A stretch of 27,783 nucleotides of DNA, taken from positions 1 to 27,783 of the IMG/VR virus record IMGVR_UViG_3300032087_005396; one strand, given 5' to 3'. Numbering within the stretch: the stretch's first letter is position 1; every line of letters starts with the position of its first letter. Below, one piece after another: positions 20,811 to 27,576 of this stretch. Both the position numbers and the translations under genes were made by a program. The notes under the pieces are model-generated. The model worked only from the letters and a program-made list of their open reading frames with translations, searched no databases and was not told where the DNA came from. This DNA is from a virus.

Positions 20811-21026
20811 ATGATCGATTCAAACATCAAAGCAGCGGACTTGGCGCCGCTACAACTAGTAAGGAAAAAAGTAACTAAGGCCATGGTGCTAGATGTTGAG
20901 GTGGTAGAACTGATTGATGCCCTAGCAGAAAAAAATAGCACATCATTTAGCAAAATTGCACGGCACTTGCTCATTGAAGGTATTAAATCGTTAAGGGAGG
21001 GCGCCAGTGATGACGCCAAAGAGTAA
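20811..21026 (+). CDS. Ribbon-helix-helix regulator
   Basis: 71 residues; GAGG 7 nt before ATG. After about 20 N-terminal residues the RHH pattern appears: strand TKAMVLD, helix VEVVELIDALAEKN, turn, helix SFSKIARHLLIEGIKSL. Likely dimeric DNA-binding protein. It is divergent from the replication operon with only 45 bp between start codons, the classic position for a regulator of both. Its 3' end overlaps the HNH gene start by 17 nt. Confidence 0.75.
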   Translation: MIDSNIKAADLAPLQLVRKKVTKAMVLDVEVVELIDALAEKNSTSFSKIARHLLIEGIKSLREGASDDAKE

Positions 21027-21519
21027 GATCTGCACGAAGTGTGATATTGAGAAGCCATTAGAGGAATTTAGTAGACAAAAAGGCGGTAAGTTTGGTCGGC
21101 GGGCACACTGCAAGGTTTGTATGGCCGAATATCGTGAGGCAAACCGTGAGCAGAGACGCCAATATAAAAAAGCAAACCGTGAACGGTTACTTGAGCAGAA
21201 ACGCCGGTATTATGAAGCAAACCGTGAACGAATATCAGAGCAGAAACGCCGGTATTATGAAGCAAACCCCGAAAAATTTGCGGCAAACTGGGCAAAAAGA
21301 AGGGCGGCAAAAATAAACAGAACGCCAGCTTGGGCCGATCTTGATCATATACAGCAATTTTACGAAGCCAGGAAAGCAATATCAGACGCAACTGGGAGAG
21401 ATTACCACGTAGACCATGAGATACCGCTGCAAGGGAAAACGGTAAGTGGGCTACACGTGCCCAGTAATTTACAGATTATCCCGGCAGAGCGCAATTTATC
21501 AAAAAACAACACTTTCTAA
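21010..21519 (+). CDS. HNH endonuclease with zinc ribbon and 15-residue repeats
   Basis: 169 residues from ATG 21010 (GGAGG 9 nt upstream; a GTG at 21007 is in frame). The N-terminal zinc ribbon has C-x2-C (CTKC) and a second C-x2-C (CKVC) 22 residues later. A linker helix is built of 15-residue repeats (EQKRRYYEANRERIS). The C-terminal HNH core is YHVDHEIPLQGK...VPSNLQIIPAERNLSKNN, with DH, N and a final N/H-type pattern. Similar free-standing HNH enzymes are common in phages as homing-type or intron-less nucleases. It sits between the RHH gene and the primase in the same direction and ends 20 nt before a terminator hairpin. Confidence 0.88.
   Translation: MTPKSKICTKCDIEKPLEEFSRQKGGKFGRRAHCKVCMAEYREANREQRRQYKKANRERLLEQKRRYYEANRERISEQKRRYYEANPEKFAANWAKRRAAKINRTPAWADLDHIQQFYEARKAISDATGRDYHVDHEIPLQGKTVSGLHVPSNLQIIPAERNLSKNNTF
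21148..21282 (+). repeat. Tandem 45-bp in-frame repeats within HNH gene
   Basis: Three 45-bp units (21148-21192, 21193-21237, 21238-21282) encode E-Q-x-R-x-Y-x-x-A-N-x-E-x-x-x. Units 2 and 3 share 31 identical bases at their start (21193-21223 and 21238-21268). The copy number can probably change by slippage without altering the frame, lengthening or shortening the helical linker. Confidence 0.85.
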
Positions 21520-21609: not shown

Positions 21610-23832
21610 ATGCGTATATCAAACAGACAATTTTTACAAGCAATATTTGGTGACGAATGGAGCACAGCACACGTCACTTCTTTTTTCGATGACCCGGGTG
21701 CCATAGATCAGGATCGGCGGGGTATTTGCTGGGCCGGGGGCGAAGCCGGGAGCTGGATACCTGAAAATGGTGAAAATCAGTACTTCACTATATCGCTGTT
21801 CCACAAAGACGGTGGCCGAGCTAATCGCAGAAAGACAAACTTTAAACAGTGTCATGTGATCGTCGCCGATGATGTAAAGGAAAAGCTACCAATAGAGCGA
21901 GTGGAGATGTTGCCAGAGCCCTCGTACAAGCTTTTGACATCGGCGGGCAGTGAACAATGGGGCTGGATACTGAAAACGCCTTGTAGCGAACGTGGTGTGG
22001 TTGAAGCGCTTTTGGATGGGTTAGTTGCAAAAGGTTTGGCGCCTGACGGGACAGACCCAGGAATGCGTGGCGTGACTCGCTATGTCAGATTGCCAGAGGG
22101 TACGAATACCAAAGCCAGTCGTAACAATTTTAAGTGTCAGATGTTGAGCTGGAAGCCAGAACTTAAGTACACGATGGACGGCTTGGCGAAAGTTTTTGAT
22201 ATAGACCTCACGCCAAAAGAAGAGAAACAGGTGGAGGCGGTAACCATGCCAGACCACCCAATCTGGGCGGCGGTGACTGTGACGGGGTACGGCGCTGACG
22301 GTTGGGTGCGGATAGATTGCCCGAACGCAGCCGCGCACAGTTCAGCAGATGCCAGCGGGGCAGCGGTTCGCACTTTAGTTGATGGGTCTGTGCAGTTTAA
22401 ATGCAACCATGGCCACTGTTCGAAGTTAAACGGTGCAAAAATTGTTAATAAACTGGGGATAACTGACGAGGTTGACCAGTATCAGCTTAGAGTTGCCAGA
22501 GCGGGGGCGGAAGCCTTAGCGGATAAACTCGGGCTTAGCGGGGGTGTGGGTGAACCGGAGGTGCAGAAAAAAGTGATCGATCCAAAAAGGTACATATTTA
22601 TCGCAGAAAAGAACAAATTCTGGGACTGTAAAACGCGTCAACTCATCACGCCAGTAGGAATTGACAACCGCTATTTGTCAGTGTATCCGAGGAAAAAAGG
22701 TAAAGGGGCGTCTGAGATGTTGTTACAAGGTTGCGGGTTGGATGATGAGGCGGATGGTATGTGTTGGGAGCCTACCGGATGGACTCGCCCAGGACGTGAT
22801 GAGGTGCTGGTACGTGTTGAGGGCCGCACACTTATTAACGAGTGGTCCGGTTTTAACGTAGCGCCCAATTTAGACTTGCCAGAACCCGACTTATGGCTTG
22901 AACATGCTGAGTACCTTTTGCCAGATGCGCGGGAACGTGAAGTGGTTTTGGACTATTTAGCGTGCATTGTCCAACGGATAGATGTTAAGCCGGATTATTG
23001 GTTAGTTCATCGTGGCGGCTTTGGTGTTGGTAAAGATTTATTTTATTCGGCTGTTATGTTTGGGCTTGGTGATGATATCGCTCGAACTATACACATTGAT
23101 AAGCTGTTAGATGGTTGGGGGGACTACATACGAGGGTTGAAGTTCGCCGCTGTAGAAGAGGTGGACAAGGCCCAAGATAAGAGAGTTGCCAACGCAATGA
23201 AAGTGATCTGTGCCTCTGGCGCTTCCAAATACCGCACGCTGAATTTAAAGGGCGGGGCGGTTGTAAGGCAGCGGGATTGCCTCGGTGGGGTTTTGATGTC
23301 AAATAAGCGCCACTGCTTAGCTGTTGAGGAGGGTGATCGTCGTTACTTTGTCGTTGATTCTTATATTGAGCCAAAGAGCGAAGATTACTATCAAAAACTG
23401 GCCGAATGGTACCGCCAGGGTGGCTATGAACAAGTGATGGGGTATCTTGGGAGACGTGACATAAGCAATTTTAACCCTCACAAGCTGCCATTCCGTACTG
23501 ATGGGCTAGAAGATTTGGTACGAGGTGGAAAATTCGACTATGAAAAGAACATGGACGAAATGGCGGCAGATCGTAGCGGGCTATTTTCGCGTGATTGGTT
23601 TAGCAAGATGGAACTACGGACCTTTGCCAAACAGTGCCAATGGAAGTGTGGTGTTAATGGGCTCGAAGAAGCTGTTCAGAATGTAGGCTATGTGTTTGTC
23701 GAAGTACAGAAGAAAATTGATGGAAAAAAGAACAAACTTGGCCGGTTTTGGGTTCGCCAAGAGGTGGCAAAAGATCGATCAGTTTCTGAGTTGTATGATG
23801 TTATGATCGAAAAAATGGGGTCTAAAAAATAG
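21610..23832 (+). CDS. RepB-type primase / SF3 helicase (DUF5906-like)
   Basis: 740 residues; GGAG 6 nt before ATG. Residues 35-200 match RepB-like archaeo-eukaryotic primases (YFTISLFHKDGGRANRRKTN, HVIVADDVKEK, PSYKLLTSAGSEQWGWIL, DPGMRGVTRYVRLPEGTN). A possible zinc site follows (C237, H243, C265, C270). The C-terminal part is an SF3/DUF5906-type helicase: Walker A HRGGFGVGKD (467-476), Walker B FAAVEEVDK (512-520), LMSNKRHCLAVEEGDRRYF (562-580) with the sensor Asn and Arg finger. It primes and unwinds at the origin, like the P4 alpha protein. A repeat-rich noncoding region follows directly, a candidate origin. Confidence 0.93.
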   Translation: MRISNRQFLQAIFGDEWSTAHVTSFFDDPGAIDQDRRGICWAGGEAGSWIPENGENQYFTISLFHKDGGRANRRKTNFKQCHVIVADDVKEKLPIERVEMLPEPSYKLLTSAGSEQWGWILKTPCSERGVVEALLDGLVAKGLAPDGTDPGMRGVTRYVRLPEGTNTKASRNNFKCQMLSWKPELKYTMDGLAKVFDIDLTPKEEKQVEAVTMPDHPIWAAVTVTGYGADGWVRIDCPNAAAHSSADASGAAVRTLVDGSVQFKCNHGHCSKLNGAKIVNKLGITDEVDQYQLRVARAGAEALADKLGLSGGVGEPEVQKKVIDPKRYIFIAEKNKFWDCKTRQLITPVGIDNRYLSVYPRKKGKGASEMLLQGCGLDDEADGMCWEPTGWTRPGRDEVLVRVEGRTLINEWSGFNVAPNLDLPEPDLWLEHAEYLLPDAREREVVLDYLACIVQRIDVKPDYWLVHRGGFGVGKDLFYSAVMFGLGDDIARTIHIDKLLDGWGDYIRGLKFAAVEEVDKAQDKRVANAMKVICASGASKYRTLNLKGGAVVRQRDCLGGVLMSNKRHCLAVEEGDRRYFVVDSYIEPKSEDYYQKLAEWYRQGGYEQVMGYLGRRDISNFNPHKLPFRTDGLEDLVRGGKFDYEKNMDEMAADRSGLFSRDWFSKMELRTFAKQCQWKCGVNGLEEAVQNVGYVFVEVQKKIDGKKNKLGRFWVRQEVAKDRSVSELYDVMIEKMGSKK

Positions 23833-24120
23833 CTGGGTATTTAGGGTACTGGGTACTTTTCGGTACCCGGTACCTAGTTGGTACCTAGAAAATTTTTTAA
23901 GTTTTTGGTACCGAAAAGTCCCTTGCCATGGGGGCTGTAGACGAAAGTACCCTAGTACCCTGGTTTTTTGGCAAAAAGTAGATTGGTGATATATAAACGT
24001 AAAATAGTACGTTTGGCAACCAAAACGTATAGAAAACGTACAGGGTGGCTATAGTAACGAGAGCTATGGAAAATGGTCAGGGTACCGGGGTACTAGGGTA
24101 CCGGCCTCTGGCGCACTGTG
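23833..24120. repeat. GGTACC/GTAC repeat cluster, candidate replication origin
   Basis: No plausible gene. Within 23843-24104 there are 13 GTAC tetramers, six of them GGTACC (23862, 23869, 23880, 23907, 24081, 24097). A 13-bp perfect inverted repeat ACTTTTCGGTACC (23855-23867) / GGTACCGAAAAGT (23907-23919) encloses a direct repeat GGTACCTAG (23869-23877 and 23880-23888) and an A/T-rich stretch. Flanking direct repeats: AGGGTACT/GGGTACT (23843-23857) on the left, and AGTACCCT twice (23946-23961), their inverse, on the right. A second cluster, AGGGTACCGG twice with GGGGTACT between, lies at 24079-24104. Position directly after a P4 alpha-like primase-helicase gene fits an iteron-type origin; an operator array is the alternative. 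Confidence 0.65.
23995..24042. repeat. AAACGTA repeats
   Basis: AAACGTA occurs at 23995-24001, inverted as TACGTTT at 24008-24014, and again at 24023-24029 and 24034-24040. The middle two form an imperfect hairpin (TACGTTTGG / CCAAAACGTA). They sit between the two GGTACC clusters and could be a second set of binding sites in the same control region. Confidence 0.5.
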
Positions 24121-24171
24121 ATATTGCTTGTTGCGGCAAGGCCGGTTTGACCAATTTCTATCGGTATGTGT

Positions 24172-24200
24172 TTGCGTTTTTAGATCAATTTTGGTACAGT
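24172..24200 (+). promoter_or_regulatory. Weak candidate promoter for leader copy 1
   Basis: TTGCGT (24172-24177), 17-nt spacer, TACAGT (24195-24200), which would start transcription near 24208, exactly where similarity to leader copy 2 begins. Both boxes are weak matches to the sigma-70 consensus, so this rests mainly on position. Confidence 0.4.
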
Positions 24201-24207
24201 TTTAGTC

Positions 24208-24310
24208 AGGCTTTCGACGGCCTGAATACAAAGTTGAAAAAGCTCAATCCTTGCGTATGTAACCTAACTTTGTGGGTAACGTCGAAACTACGCGAGGGTT
24301 GAGCTTTTTT
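24208..24310 (+). promoter_or_regulatory. Structured leader RNA / attenuator, copy 1
   Basis: Two alternative folds. Terminator: 21-bp stem 24237-24257 / 24289-24309 (two G-U pairs) ending in a U run, loop of 31 nt with a small ACC/GGT pairing. Competing fold: TTTCGACG (24212-24219) with CGTCGAAA (24280-24287) enclosing ACAAAGTT (24228-24235) with AACTTTGT (24266-24273). The latter helix pairs upstream sequence with the terminator loop, so the two cross and, with linkers of one base, cannot fully coexist. AGGTGA and the ATG of 24327 follow within 17 nt. The same architecture recurs at 25381 with compensatory changes. This is cis-acting control of the downstream gene; effector unknown. Confidence 0.8.
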
Positions 24311-24326
24311 ATTAGGTGAATGAGAT

Positions 24327-24539
24327 ATGAGTTTTGTTGGTAAAGTTTGTAAAGATTGCGGAGTCAAAAAACCTTTAGCTGATTTTGAATCAACTCACAA
24401 TCGTACAGGTAAGTACGCTTGTGTACCTCGATGTAAGCCGTGCAATAGCGAACACCGTAAACAGTACCGTATTCGTAAACGGGAGCAAGACAAGGCCGAA
24501 TTGGCAAAGCAGCCCATAGCTATAATTTTTCCACATTAG
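24327..24539 (+). CDS. Solo zinc-ribbon protein under leader copy 1
   Basis: 70 residues; AGGTGA about 8 nt before ATG. C-x2-C (CKDC) near residues 8-11 and CKPC near 36-39 flank KKPLADFESTHNRTGKYACV, followed by a basic helix (NSEHRKQYRIRKREQDK). This closely resembles the zinc-ribbon N-terminus of the HNH enzyme at 21010 (KPLEEF...CKVC...EYRE), but no HNH core follows and a terminator comes directly after. It may be a DNA/RNA-binding adaptor or the remnant of an HNH gene. The gene, its leader and its terminator (24208-24589) form a self-contained unit. Confidence 0.75.
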   Translation: MSFVGKVCKDCGVKKPLADFESTHNRTGKYACVPRCKPCNSEHRKQYRIRKREQDKAELAKQPIAIIFPH

Positions 24540-24563
24540 TATTGCGGTGTTTTTACCCACATT

Positions 24564-24589
24564 AGCCCCTAACCATTAGGGGCTTTTTT
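24564..24589 (+). terminator. Rho-independent terminator
   Basis: Perfect 9-bp stem AGCCCCTAA / TTAGGGGCT (24564-24572, 24576-24584), 3-nt loop, then a T run to 24589. Closes the zinc-ribbon unit, 25 nt after its stop. Confidence 0.92.
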
Positions 24590-24616
24590 ATTTGAACTAT
24601 TGAGGCAAAAGTACAC

Positions 24617-24874
24617 ATGACAGACATCAACAAAACATTAGACGAGCGACAACAGACACACGGCAGTTTTGAAAGTCACGCACGGATCAGCCAAGCACTC
24701 AAGGACGCTATGCAACTTGGCAAGTTTGCACAGTTAGACGATACACAGCGGGAAGCTTTGGAGATGATCGTCCACAAGATTGCACGCATACTTAATGGTA
24801 ACGCTGACCACAAAGACCACTGGCACGATATCGCTGGCTATTCTTTGCTCATTGAGAAACAGTTAGAGGGCTGA
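24617..24874 (+). CDS. DUF6378-like phage protein
   Basis: 85 residues; GAGG about 11 nt before ATG. The N-terminus (ERQQTHGSFESHARISQALK), the middle (ALEMIVHKIARILNGNADHK) and the end (DHWHDIAGYSLLIEKQLE) match a small all-helical phage family I know as DUF6378, with a conserved HG near the start, K-I-A-R and the D-x-W-x-D-I-A-G-Y signature. The layout of acidic residues and histidines on helices recalls all-alpha NTP pyrophosphohydrolases, but function is not established. It lies directly after a terminator without a clear promoter. Confidence 0.75.
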   Translation: MTDINKTLDERQQTHGSFESHARISQALKDAMQLGKFAQLDDTQREALEMIVHKIARILNGNADHKDHWHDIAGYSLLIEKQLEG

Positions 24875-24877
24875 CCG

Positions 24878-25078
24878 ATGGAACACATGATTTGGATGAT
24901 AATCGACCAAAAGCAAACACAGCTGAAAATTGATGTGGAGGTCGATCCAGACACTGGAACGGCTCAAATTTGGAAAGTGTGGGATTGTCTGGAAAATAAA
25001 CAGATCGAGCTATCAGGAGCCGAGAGATTAGTTCTGGCAGATAAGCTTAGCTACAAATACCTTGATATAATATTCTGA
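24878..25078 (+). CDS. Hypothetical protein
   Basis: 66 residues; GAGGG 8 nt before ATG, 3 nt after the preceding gene's stop, so probably co-translated with it. Small alpha+beta protein: strands MIWMIIDQKQTQLKIDVEVD and GTAQIWKVWDCLEN, then a helix (SGAERLVLADKLSYKYLDII). No family recognised. Confidence 0.6.
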   Translation: MEHMIWMIIDQKQTQLKIDVEVDPDTGTAQIWKVWDCLENKQIELSGAERLVLADKLSYKYLDIIF

Positions 25079-25380
25079 GAGCTTCTGTATTGCGCTGTGA
25101 GACGTTTTGGAGGTGATTTAGGGTCAATGTATAGGGTAGGGGTTCTGAGAGGGCTTAGAGAGCGTTTTAATAATACCCGCCGAGGCTCTTGGTGTCGTAA
25201 ACATTTACGGTCACATAATGCTCAAACTGGCGGGTTATTTTTTAACTAGTAAGTATTCCTTAGTGGTTGCGGTTTGTGCTATGATTGGTTTATCCCTTCA
25301 TAGGGTGGGTTCGAAATAAGGCACCTTCTTCTGCTTCGTCCGCCAAAACTAATCAGAGTTGGTGCCAGCTCTTTGTAACT
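25079..25380. other. Noncoding region with structured terminator and inverted repeats
   Basis: No convincing gene. A long-loop terminator-like structure lies at 25175-25243 (separate entry). A small hairpin CCCTtcatAGGG lies near 25293-25304. GGCACC (25319-25324) and GGTGCC (25361-25366) are an inverted pair just before leader copy 2. The remainder shows nothing I can interpret; a promoter for leader copy 2 is expected here but not clear. Confidence 0.5.
25175..25243 (+). terminator. Terminator with structured loop
   Basis: ACCCGCC (25175-25181) pairs with GGCGGGT (25229-25235), extended by A/T pairs, and is followed by a six-T run (25238-25243). The 47-nt loop holds a second hairpin: CGTAAA (25196-25201) / TTTACG (25204-25209) extended by GTG/CAC. 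It follows the gene ending at 25078 by nearly 100 nt. It may simply end that operon, but the large structured loop resembles an attenuator or small-RNA 3' end. Confidence 0.65.
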
Positions 25381-25480
25381 AGGCTTTCGACGGCCTAATC
25401 GCAAGTTGAAAAAGCTCAACCTTTGTACTGGTAGCCTATTTGCGGGCAACGTCGAAACAGTACGAGGGTTGAGCTTTTTT
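25381..25480 (+). promoter_or_regulatory. Structured leader RNA / attenuator, copy 2
   Basis: Same architecture as at 24208. Terminator: 22-bp stem 25409-25430 / 25458-25479, then a T run. Competing fold: TTTCGACG (25385-25392) with CGTCGAAA (25450-25457), enclosing a helix 25399-25406 / 25438-25445. Against copy 1, pairs change compensatorily: C-G, G-C, T-A, A-T in the terminator stem become T-A, A-T, C-G, T-A, and A-T, C-G, A-T in the inner alternative helix become C-G, G-C, C-G; the loop pair A-T becomes G-C. The TTTCGACG/CGTCGAAA strands are invariant. GGGTGA and the Rha ATG (25497) follow directly. Confidence 0.8.
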
Positions 25481-25496
25481 ATTGGGTGATTGAAAT

Positions 25497-26297
25497 ATGA
25501 ACGATTTGGTAATAGTGGAAGGTGAGCAATTAACAACCAATTCTATTTTAATAGCTGATGGCGTTGGGGTTCAGCATAAAAATGTTATTGCCTTGATACG
25601 TGATAATTTAGGGGATTTAGAAGAGTTTGGAGAAGTCGCGTTTGAAACGCGACTTAACTCGCAAGGTACGGCTACAGAATATGCAATACTTAATGAGCAA
25701 CAAGCGACCATCATAATTACGTATATGCGGAACACGGCAACAGTAAGAAAGTTTAAAAAGCTGCTAGTTAAACAGTTTTACGAAATGCGGGAAGCCCTAA
25801 AGAATTTACCCGACCCGCACGCGGCTATGATGGAGCGACTAGAGCTGGCAAGAACAGTGCCACGTGGTTACTTTTGTGTGTTTTATCAAAGCGTCGATGT
25901 TCAATACACACTGGCTAAACATATAAACTATGGGAAAGAATTAATACCTGACATTTCTATCGGCTGGCACTGGTCAGACTACATCACAAAACAGAAGCAA
26001 AATATAAAAAATAGTCGTATCAGGTGGGTCGATTTTAAATACCCGAAATCTTGGAACATGTTTGTGCCTTATGTTTGGGTTTATAACAATTCTTTTATGG
26101 GGGATTTTGACGACTGGTTCAGGGGTTTTTATCTACCGGAAAAATTCCCTAGCTATATAAAGGGGTGTGTTCAAAAAGGGAAATTACCTGCAAAAACAGT
26201 ATTAAAATTAATTAATGACATGGTTGAATTGGGTCAGTTGCCAAAAGATTCAATTTTAAAATGTTTACCTAAAAAAGAATTAAAATTATTAAAATAA
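25497..26297 (+). CDS. Rha-family phage regulatory protein with unknown C-terminal domain
   Basis: 266 residues; GGGTGA about 8 nt before ATG. Residues 1-100 match the Rha domain (SILIADGVGVQHKNVIALIR, EFGEVAFETR, YAILNEQQATIIITYMRNT, FKKLLVKQFYEMREAL). Rha proteins are temperate-phage regulatory proteins, often acting as moron-like genes that affect host range or immunity. The C-terminal 150 residues are unlike the usual Ant/KilA-C partners: aromatic-rich (WHWSDYITKQ, WVDFKYPKSWNMFVPYVWVY, DDWFRGFYLP) with a Lys-rich end. Codon use is AT-rich towards the end. It is enclosed by its own leader and a terminator at 26304. Confidence 0.85.
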   Translation: MNDLVIVEGEQLTTNSILIADGVGVQHKNVIALIRDNLGDLEEFGEVAFETRLNSQGTATEYAILNEQQATIIITYMRNTATVRKFKKLLVKQFYEMREALKNLPDPHAAMMERLELARTVPRGYFCVFYQSVDVQYTLAKHINYGKELIPDISIGWHWSDYITKQKQNIKNSRIRWVDFKYPKSWNMFVPYVWVYNNSFMGDFDDWFRGFYLPEKFPSYIKGCVQKGKLPAKTVLKLINDMVELGQLPKDSILKCLPKKELKLLK

Positions 26298-26303
26298 GTA
26301 AAT

Positions 26304-26336
26304 AAAAAAGGCCACGTAAAACACGCGGCCTTTTTT
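26304..26336. terminator. Bidirectional terminator
   Basis: AAAAAAGGCC (26304-26313) / GGCCTTTTTT (26327-26336) with an inner CGT/ACG pairing. It serves both the Rha gene (plus) and the minus-strand operon ending at 26338. Confidence 0.92.
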
Positions 26337-26337
26337 C

Positions 26338-26532
26338 TTAAACCCCCAACGACTTTATATAAGCCTCAATCATTTTTACTTTAACCTTCGGCACCGTGTA
26401 GCAAACCTTTACCAGTCCTTCAGCTTCCATTCTCGCTTTAACTTCAGCTCTTCGTGCTTTCTCTTTCTCAGCTTTTTGGCGTCTGCGAATCAAAGCTATT
26501 TCTTTTTTGTAGCGTTCAATATCTTCATTCAT
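26338..26532 (-). CDS. Small coiled-coil protein
   Basis: 64 residues; GGGAG about 10 nt before ATG 26532. Residues 3-38 are a highly charged helix (IERYKKEIALIRRRQKAEKE), followed by a short strand-helix end (VCYTVPKVKVKMIEAYIKSL) that resembles a single RHH-like half. It overlaps the upstream gene by 8 nt and is the last gene before the terminator. Function unknown. Confidence 0.6.
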   Translation of the reverse strand: MNEDIERYKKEIALIRRRQKAEKEKARRAEVKARMEAEGLVKVCYTVPKVKVKMIEAYIKSLGV

Positions 26533-27547: not shown

Positions 27548-27576
27548 GCACTCGTGCTAATTATTTTGCACGCGTG
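27529..27576. promoter_or_regulatory. Three operator-like palindromes, 20 bp apart
   Basis: CACGCGTG at 27529-27536, CACTCGTG at 27549-27556, CACGCGTG at 27569-27576: exactly 20 bp between starts, about two DNA turns, so a repressor would bind one face cooperatively. They overlap the minus-strand promoter and lie between it and the plus-strand promoter at 27629. The regulator is not identified in the window. Confidence 0.7.

Follow-up and report, generated by a model that had tools for sequence, protein, structure and literature searches.

We describe two related leader RNAs in a 27,783-nt stretch of DNA from an uncultured phage, IMG/VR record IMGVR_UViG_3300032087_005396 (here the window, to which all coordinates refer unless another record is named). 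Element A (24208 to 24310) precedes a gene for a zinc-ribbon protein and element B (25381 to 25480) a gene for a Rha-BstA fusion protein, all on the plus strand. Sequence, folding, pairing and shuffle tests suggest that each is a bistable leader RNA, able to form a strong terminator hairpin or a rival long-range fold. We read these elements as cis-acting transcription attenuators in phage mRNA leaders, in which an antiterminator and a terminator would exclude each other, and we give this reading a probability of roughly 0.63. By prediction and by compensated changes, the elements have what defines that class, namely two rival predicted leader folds, one of them an intrinsic terminator, ahead of a gene. 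They are probably a kind of phage gene switch without an earlier description; we found none in the open-access literature. The complementary strand sets, the compensated changes, the site before a start codon and the same design elsewhere are read from sequence.

An earlier note on this DNA had placed two structured elements at 24208-24310 and 25381-25480, upstream of ribosome sites, and both are found there. The likeness between them spans AGGCTTTCGACGGCCT (AGGC at 24208 and 25381) through the start codon, with 85% identity in an ungapped 62 nt of the 3' part and, towards the 5' end, two blocks of 76% and 78% without gaps, while just 5' of the shared region similarity between A and B is not evident. 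Judged by these letters, A and B are homologous leaders. Each starts with a 5' hairpin in its minimum free energy (MFE) fold (AGGCT/GGCCT at 24208-24223 in A; 25381-25396 in B) and ends with the terminator. The 5' arm of the latter lies at 24237-24257 in A and 25409-25430 in B, and its 3' arm at 24289-24309 and 25458-25479, the 3' arm with its T run reaching from 24289 to 24310 and from 25458 to 25480. These arms are complementary to 90-91% in A and B and make a helix of 21-22 bp. The MFE is -45.0 kcal/mol for A and -45.9 kcal/mol for B (z = -7.0 and -7.6 against dinucleotide shuffles), and 0 of 200 dinucleotide shuffles were as stable as the full element of A or B. From the U run to the ATG there are 16 nt in both elements. 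The Shine-Dalgarno-like GGTGA in between is at 24315-24319 before the ATG at 24327 (seen in the sequence and kept in B) and at 25485-25489 before the ATG at 25497 (from sequence and folding prediction).

The rival fold joins the 5' end of the leader to the top of the terminator. In both elements, TTTCGACG near the 5' end (24212-24219 in A, 25385-25392 in B) is complementary to CGTCGAAA in the apical part of the terminator hairpin (24280-24287 and 25450-25457), giving an outer long-range helix. An inner helix is nested within it, formed by ACAAAGTT (24228-24235) and AACTTTGT (24266-24273) in A, and by CGCAAGT (25400-25406) and ATTTGCG (25438-25444) in B. When successive prefixes of A and B are folded, the long-range fold is the most stable one just before the terminator 3' arm, and the terminator afterwards; this order of formation, like the covering of the ribosome site discussed below, is a folding prediction. 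Since the full rival fold leaves 0-1 nt to cross a 20-bp helix, we infer from the coordinates that the full rival fold and the full terminator would be mutually exclusive by topology. The nested arrangement is rare by chance. In a test that counted shuffles with two nested long-range runs holding as many Watson-Crick pairs (5000 shuffles per element), one shuffle was as good as A and one as good as B; for the elements C, D and E of other phages, introduced below, the counts were 29, 8 and 0. Together with the pairs kept between the two copies, the values for A and B bear out the claim of the earlier note that these are structured leader RNAs of conserved pairing, beyond a plain duplicated repeat.

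Both copies have standard pairs at all 33 positions of the shared terminator-state fold; four of these are altered on both sides (columns 47-85, 48-84, 49-83 and 55-70) and two on one side. The earlier note had listed four consecutive compensated changes in the long stem, three in the inner helix and an A-T to G-C change in a loop pair. Three of the long-stem changes are recovered (47-85, 48-84 and 49-83); the fourth pair (50-82) is formable in A and in B, yet the minimum-energy fold of A puts that base elsewhere. The loop pair is found at columns 55-70. The three inner-helix changes appear once the helix is re-registered by one base; the plain column alignment gives one two-sided (21-66) and one one-sided change (20-67) in the inner helix, and one one-sided change (13-70) in the outer helix, with all pairs of both helices preserved. 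A shuffle control on the A/B covariation gave 25 of 500 for the terminator fold and 252 of 500 for the rival fold; with two sequences this control is weak.

The same design was found in other phages. A blastn search of phages with B gave 18 records, 16 of them chance matches of 21-30 nt; the remaining two, Leptolyngbya phage Lbo-JY16 (PP438408) and Plectonema phage Lbo240-yong2 (OP828577), carry element C. The match between B and C (83%, E-value = 2e-4, 50 nt of the query against 53 nt of the record) ends at the annotated ATG in PP438408; OP828577 annotates the start 9 nt earlier. A covariance model built from two sequences, A and B (hereafter R1), scores C at 28.9 bits. Element C precedes a phage gene of phrog_1376, after which come genes for a recombinase (PHROGs makes it Erf-like, one record calls it Bet) and an exonuclease. 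A promoter-like TTGACT-16-TATTCT can be read upstream of C. In C, TTGGCGG lies in the 5' half, outside the blast match, and CCGCCAA in the apical part of the terminator; TCAGT/ACTGA forms the inner helix, and folding of prefixes places the rival helix first and the terminator later. C in turn matches by blastn (71.5% over 119 nt, E-value = 5e-6) element D in Pseudomonas phage AH02, between gene 50 (annotated as a NimB-like recombination protein) and gene 51, starting 18 nt past the gene 50 stop codon, in a locus whose sequence reads as a lambda-like early operon. D keeps the TTGGCGG/CCGCCAA outer helix and is able to form an inner TCAGCAA/TTGCTGA. The least certain member, E, came from a sequence-blind architecture scan; occupying 22555-22693 of AH02 on the minus strand, it precedes an HNH homing-endonuclease gene. 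It has 19 nested Watson-Crick pairs, and in prefix folding again shows the rival helix first and the terminator later. As a separate observation, a leader in phages recorded for a Leptolyngbya/Plectonema host (OP828577, PP438408) closely matches one in a Pseudomonas phage, which raises the question of the recorded host or of a recent transfer.

Pairing is maintained across these elements as the letters change. Outer-helix pairs are 8/8, 8/8, 7/7 and 7/7 in A, B, C and D, inner-helix pairs 8/8, 7/7 (one G-T), 5/5 and 7/7, and terminator pairs 21/21, 22/22, 18/19 and 18/19. Between A/B and C/D, 5 of 7 outer-helix positions are altered on both sides, with the helix registered by hand at its outer end; between the terminators of C and D, 7 of 19 pairs are altered on both sides, and the sole mismatch is common to both. 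U runs are preserved in all of A, B, C, D and E, and the distance from the end of the U run to the ATG is 16, 16, 14 and 12 nt in A, B, C and D. The earlier note had named a failure to find further homologues with preserved pairing as the main ground for giving up its claim; such homologues do occur in other phages. Its suggestion of a phage-specific system needs amending in that the element is not confined to this phage: in other phages it is also found before a recombination operon, a small-gene block and, by architecture only, a homing-endonuclease gene.

In transcription attenuators, mutually exclusive antiterminator and terminator structures form in the leader. Under the attenuation model that we favour, the nascent RNA behind the polymerase would form the 5' hairpin first, and next the two-part long-range helix, with the outer part made of the 5' strand and the apical part of the later terminator and the inner part nested within. 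This rival helix would lock the terminator 5' arm in its loop. Once the terminator 3' arm emerges, the hairpin of 19-22 bp with its U run could displace the rival helix, and transcription would end there, a few bases short of the Shine-Dalgarno-like site. If a bound protein, a modified polymerase, a partner RNA or kinetics kept the rival helix in place, readthrough would follow and the gene would be expressed. Besides the topological exclusion, the inferred parts of the model are termination and readthrough in the cell, regulation, and the signal. The wide range of downstream genes argues against a pathway-bound metabolite and for a general signal of phage development; candidates would be the polymerase state, an antitermination factor or a partner RNA. 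The elements resemble classical attenuators in being leaders before a gene, with two rival folds, a U-run terminator and a ribosome site downstream. Unlike in those, the antiterminator hardly borrows bases of the terminator arms, the 5' leader pairing with the apical part of the terminator, and it would exclude the terminator by topology; no aptamer, leader peptide or known binding protein was recognised in the elements. Leader-peptide attenuation was rejected, since no short frame with a ribosome site looked convincing on inspection by eye. Classical attenuators would be the closest working analogues, along with IsrK and c4 for a terminated leader acting in trans.

The ribosome site may take part in the switch. 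When a longer RNA of A, B or C folds freely, most of the site is paired, and forcing the outer helix leaves most of it open; for B, folding predicts that GGTGA pairs with AATCGC (25397-25402) when the terminator is formed and is mostly free in the rival fold. For these three elements, the terminator form of a longer RNA would thus cover the site and the rival form open it, giving a tighter off state. The same predictions would suit translational control, with the covering and exposing of the Shine-Dalgarno-like site, not termination, as the main output. We consider this improbable: the site of D is open in both folds, that of E has two bases paired in both, the covering in A varies with the length of sequence folded, and all five elements have kept their U runs.

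The location of D, so soon after the stop codon of the preceding gene, fits an attenuator within an operon better than a separate small-RNA gene. It speaks against the reading that the elements are dual-function small RNAs of the IsrK or c4 type, which we judge unlikely. Transcription would then mostly stop at the U run, and the resulting RNA of about 100 nt would act in trans on readthrough mRNA from its own copy or the other one, via the exposed TTTCGACG and CGTCGAAA strands. Such a role would suit the two complementary 8-mers, which are identical in A and B, mostly unpaired in the terminator fold and capable of cross-pairing, as well as the gene after B, which opens with a Rha domain and whose matches in phage records are annotated as antirepressor or Rha-like regulator. 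IsrK of Gifsy-1, as presented in passages of PMC4825925, likewise has a terminated short form and a readthrough mRNA, with alternative structures. Portions of that article and of PMC12197685 describe IsrK in Gifsy-1 and c4 in P1 as phage-encoded structured RNAs before an antirepressor-type gene, a setting similar to that of our elements. In contrast to IsrK and c4, the elements lie before unrelated genes, one of them within an operon, and have no Rfam match near threshold. Moreover, C and D have only four nucleotides of the complementary strand in the hairpin loop, so loop-first pairing in trans is not a common feature; kissing loops were dropped as one for the same reason, the hairpin loops of C and D being 4 nt. 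In the window Rfam gives no match at gathering level, in agreement with the statement of the earlier note that no described riboswitch or attenuator of this shape could be recognised. Around A/B, C and D, the three regions scanned, hits are sub-threshold only, the bglG-type ones scoring 19-21 bits against a cut-off of 80, which we read as generic terminators.

A further possibility is that A and B are plain strong bidirectional terminators that insulate mobile cassettes, their complementarity being incidental or a by-product of palindrome evolution. R1 scores the reverse strand of both elements too, an A run stands opposite the U run in both, the surrounding segments differ in the relative L147 (below), and the same tail trails ordinary terminators. 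On the other side, with the end of the U run 12-16 nt from the ATG in A-D, the hairpin has to be transcribed through before the gene is reached, and the nested complementarity is rare in shuffles in three sequence classes and compensated between phages. We therefore hold this explanation, too, to have little chance of being right.

Several observations weigh against the attenuator reading. The terminator, at about -45 kcal/mol, exceeds the rival fold in stability by more than 20 kcal/mol (the latter at -20 to -24 kcal/mol for the same RNA before the 3' arm), so the rival fold has to work through kinetics or with the help of some stabilising factor. Taken alone, the energy of this fold is unexceptional: the prefix z is -2.0 for A and -1.1 for B, and 7.5% of 5000 random variants that keep the terminator match the stability of the rival fold of B. 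In a minimum-energy prefix test, the shuffles as good, out of 300, numbered 0 for A, 14 for B, 32 for C, 178 for D and 4 for E; by this test the predicted rival fold of D is not special and that of C is weak. Prefixes of D of 78-90 nt show the outer helix without the inner one, and the ribosome sites of D and E do not follow the pattern of A, B and C. The match between B and C rests in part on the U run and the tail TTTTTTATTGGGTGA, which also trails ordinary bacterial terminators, and this part is not diagnostic; R1 was run on C only after blastn had selected C, and D was not found by R1. E is supported by architecture only, and it overlaps an annotated small ORF (gene 28). Looser settings of the architecture scan, of the kind that first gave E, yield many chance hits, and R1 gave no match in 398 Pseudomonadota genomes, under stricter filters and with no positive control. 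Finally, inspection by eye of eight other BstA loci, two of which have an uncertain start, showed no such leader in any of them, and a leader specific to BstA was rejected on that ground.

The architecture scan required terminator arms, a U run, a start codon and a 5' strand complementary to the apical part. At a strict setting, picked after A-E were known, it recovers all five elements, none in the control phages lambda, HK022, P22 and most of D3 (180,977 bases), four in 210 other loci (1,362,250 bases), and none when the window, AH02 and Lbo240-yong2 were triplet-shuffled (ten shuffles). In D3 a gene of equal length (1,065 bases) precedes the recombination genes, without a leader of this kind. 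Lax scans also give a hairpin near 27564 in the window, with TGTTGCTAT complementary to the apical part, which fails the strict setting. Searches by letters were less productive. Blastn with A in phages and plasmids gave no match at an E-value of 1 or below, and with E in phages it gave AH02 itself only, beyond short chance matches; among the blastn queries A, B and E, the outward lead came from B only. Scans of viral contigs for patterns of the A/B letters gave 1, 0, 14 and 12 stretches; the single one (L001) and the set of 12 hold no such element, and the set of 14 was judged by R1 alone. R1 over loci L001, L004-L151 and L152-L167 gave no convincing member, and the best R1 scores, at L085 (28.7 bits), L114 (24.1) and L072 (18.4), belong to long palindromic repeats of another kind. 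The same kind of pattern scan in genome contigs gave mostly Flavobacterium among the matches listed.

In 369 genomes, the pattern TTGGCGG..CCGCCAA..TTTTT matched in 18, against 17 for the backward control. A pattern of the terminator tail, with up to 3 mismatches, occurred in 31 of 398 genomes, at 34 places against 16 for the backward control; among 30 such loci inspected by eye many are ordinary terminators and none has the element. As an observation in its own right, slightly altered forms of TTTTTTATTGGGTGA are seen again behind ordinary terminators in several Pseudomonadota genomes (loci L188-L217). A consensus fold of A-D from a MAFFT alignment holds only part of the terminator and a weak tail hairpin, the plain alignment misplacing the arms. 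No tRNA-like element was found.

Other known elements were also compared. Integron attC sites lie at cassette borders and have RYYYAAC/GTTRRRY core sites; B has both core sites and A lacks the first, but the segment borders near 24142/24606 and 25263/26523 are not on core sites, and attC was rejected. Type III toxin-antitoxin systems have a tandem-repeat RNA antitoxin before a ToxN-type toxin; the leaders have no tandem repeat, and no such protein family is among the matches. The start-associated sequences with inverted repeats (ESAS) of cluster K mycobacteriophages are, like A and B, repeated inverted-repeat elements beside the translation starts of several phage genes; they have 17-bp inverted repeats with a spacer of mostly 4-13 bp and a 13-bp motif, and passages of PMC3203893 on them mention no terminator. 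The arms of A and B are 21-22 nt with 27-31 nt between them, and the motif GGGATAGGAGCCC is absent from both strands of the window, so ESAS and SAS were rejected as well. Element B shares with the anti-BstA element aba its small size and its place at the 5' end of a bstA-type gene. According to passages of PMC8585504, aba is a 63-bp self-immunity element that overlaps the bstA start codon, has terminal CCCGCC repeats and is judged DNA-based by its authors. Unlike aba, B lies upstream of the start, lacks CCCGCC, has the design of a hairpin RNA, and has relatives before genes other than bstA. As the only CCCGCC on the plus strand within 24001-26400 is at 25176, and other genes carry the leader too, B was excluded as an aba. 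In that part of the window, 25164-25246 holds a further terminator-like hairpin (CCCGCC..GGCGGGTTATTTTTT) with a weak Rfam match to abiF RNA (23.1 bits against a cut-off of 37, E-value = 0.34).

The zinc-ribbon gene after A (24327-24539, plus strand, 70 aa) has PHROGs matches to HNH endonuclease, endonuclease VII and Lar-like families (E-values of 4.6e-8 to 1.4e-5), and its predicted product resembles parts of these phage families. The gene after B (25497-26297, plus strand, 266 aa) had been called a Rha gene in the earlier note. The Rha domain is present (Pfam Phage_pRha, residues 14-99, E-value = 9.6e-17), but the protein is in fact a Rha-BstA fusion, with the PADLOC BstA profile PDLC02356 at residues 102-242 (E-value = 8.3e-26), a match to the BstA family of PHROGs (E-value = 3.5e-17) and 28.8% identity to BTP1 BstA by tblastn (E-value = 3e-8). 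By its C-terminal domain, the predicted protein belongs to the BstA family. Parts of PMC8585504 describe BstA as a prophage abortive-infection protein with a KilA-N-like N-terminus, along with a small group that shares the C-terminal region only. Element B may thus control an abortive-infection-like gene. No paper coupling "Rha domain" with "BstA" was found in the open-access literature. Each of the two genes has a terminator-like hairpin downstream, at 24564-24590 on the plus strand after the zinc-ribbon gene, and at 26301-26339 after the Rha-BstA gene (listed on the minus strand by the scan, with a T run on the plus strand too).

A related contig, L147, has a primase 98% identical in the matched stretch, and DNA 89.7% identical over 2,385 nt. 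Blastn blocks align 21760-24141 of the window with 1-2385 of L147, and 24607-25162 with 2423-2978. The segments in between and beyond have no aligned counterpart in L147: 24142-24606 (cassette 1) holds element A, the zinc-ribbon gene and its terminator, and 25263-26523 holds element B, the Rha-BstA gene and most of a small minus-strand gene. As L147 lacks both leaders and both genes and has other sequence in place of these segments, each leader with its gene appears to have been gained or lost as a unit, in a moron-like manner. Stretch 3016-3245 of L147 is noncoding, with a promoter-like TTGGCA-17-TATAGT and a strong terminator; the terminator loop GATTGGG is complementary to an upstream CCCAATC. 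It is possibly a small RNA of similar design, but no gene start was seen 3' of the terminator on that strand. Elsewhere in the window, three 45-nt tandem repeats (21147-21281) lie inside a gene for an HNH-like zinc-ribbon protein (21007-21519).

To our knowledge, accessory and defence genes of phages must be silent or on at different times, and the timing of such cassettes is mostly unknown. We tentatively raise the possibility, doubtful as it is at present, that unrelated phages carry an entire, so far undescribed class of RNA switches where their accessory, recombination and homing-endonuclease genes start, of which the topology alone is kept while the letters turn over too fast for sequence searches; each terminated leader may then recognise only its own kind, giving private control of genes that include BstA-type defence genes. 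Such a leader, present ahead of a BstA-type gene and a recombination operon and perhaps of a homing-endonuclease gene as well, would be a common control part. With topology conserved more than letters, the element could have escaped catalogues of the Rfam type. The phages with named hosts, Pseudomonas phage AH02 and the Leptolyngbya and Plectonema phages, would make the model testable.

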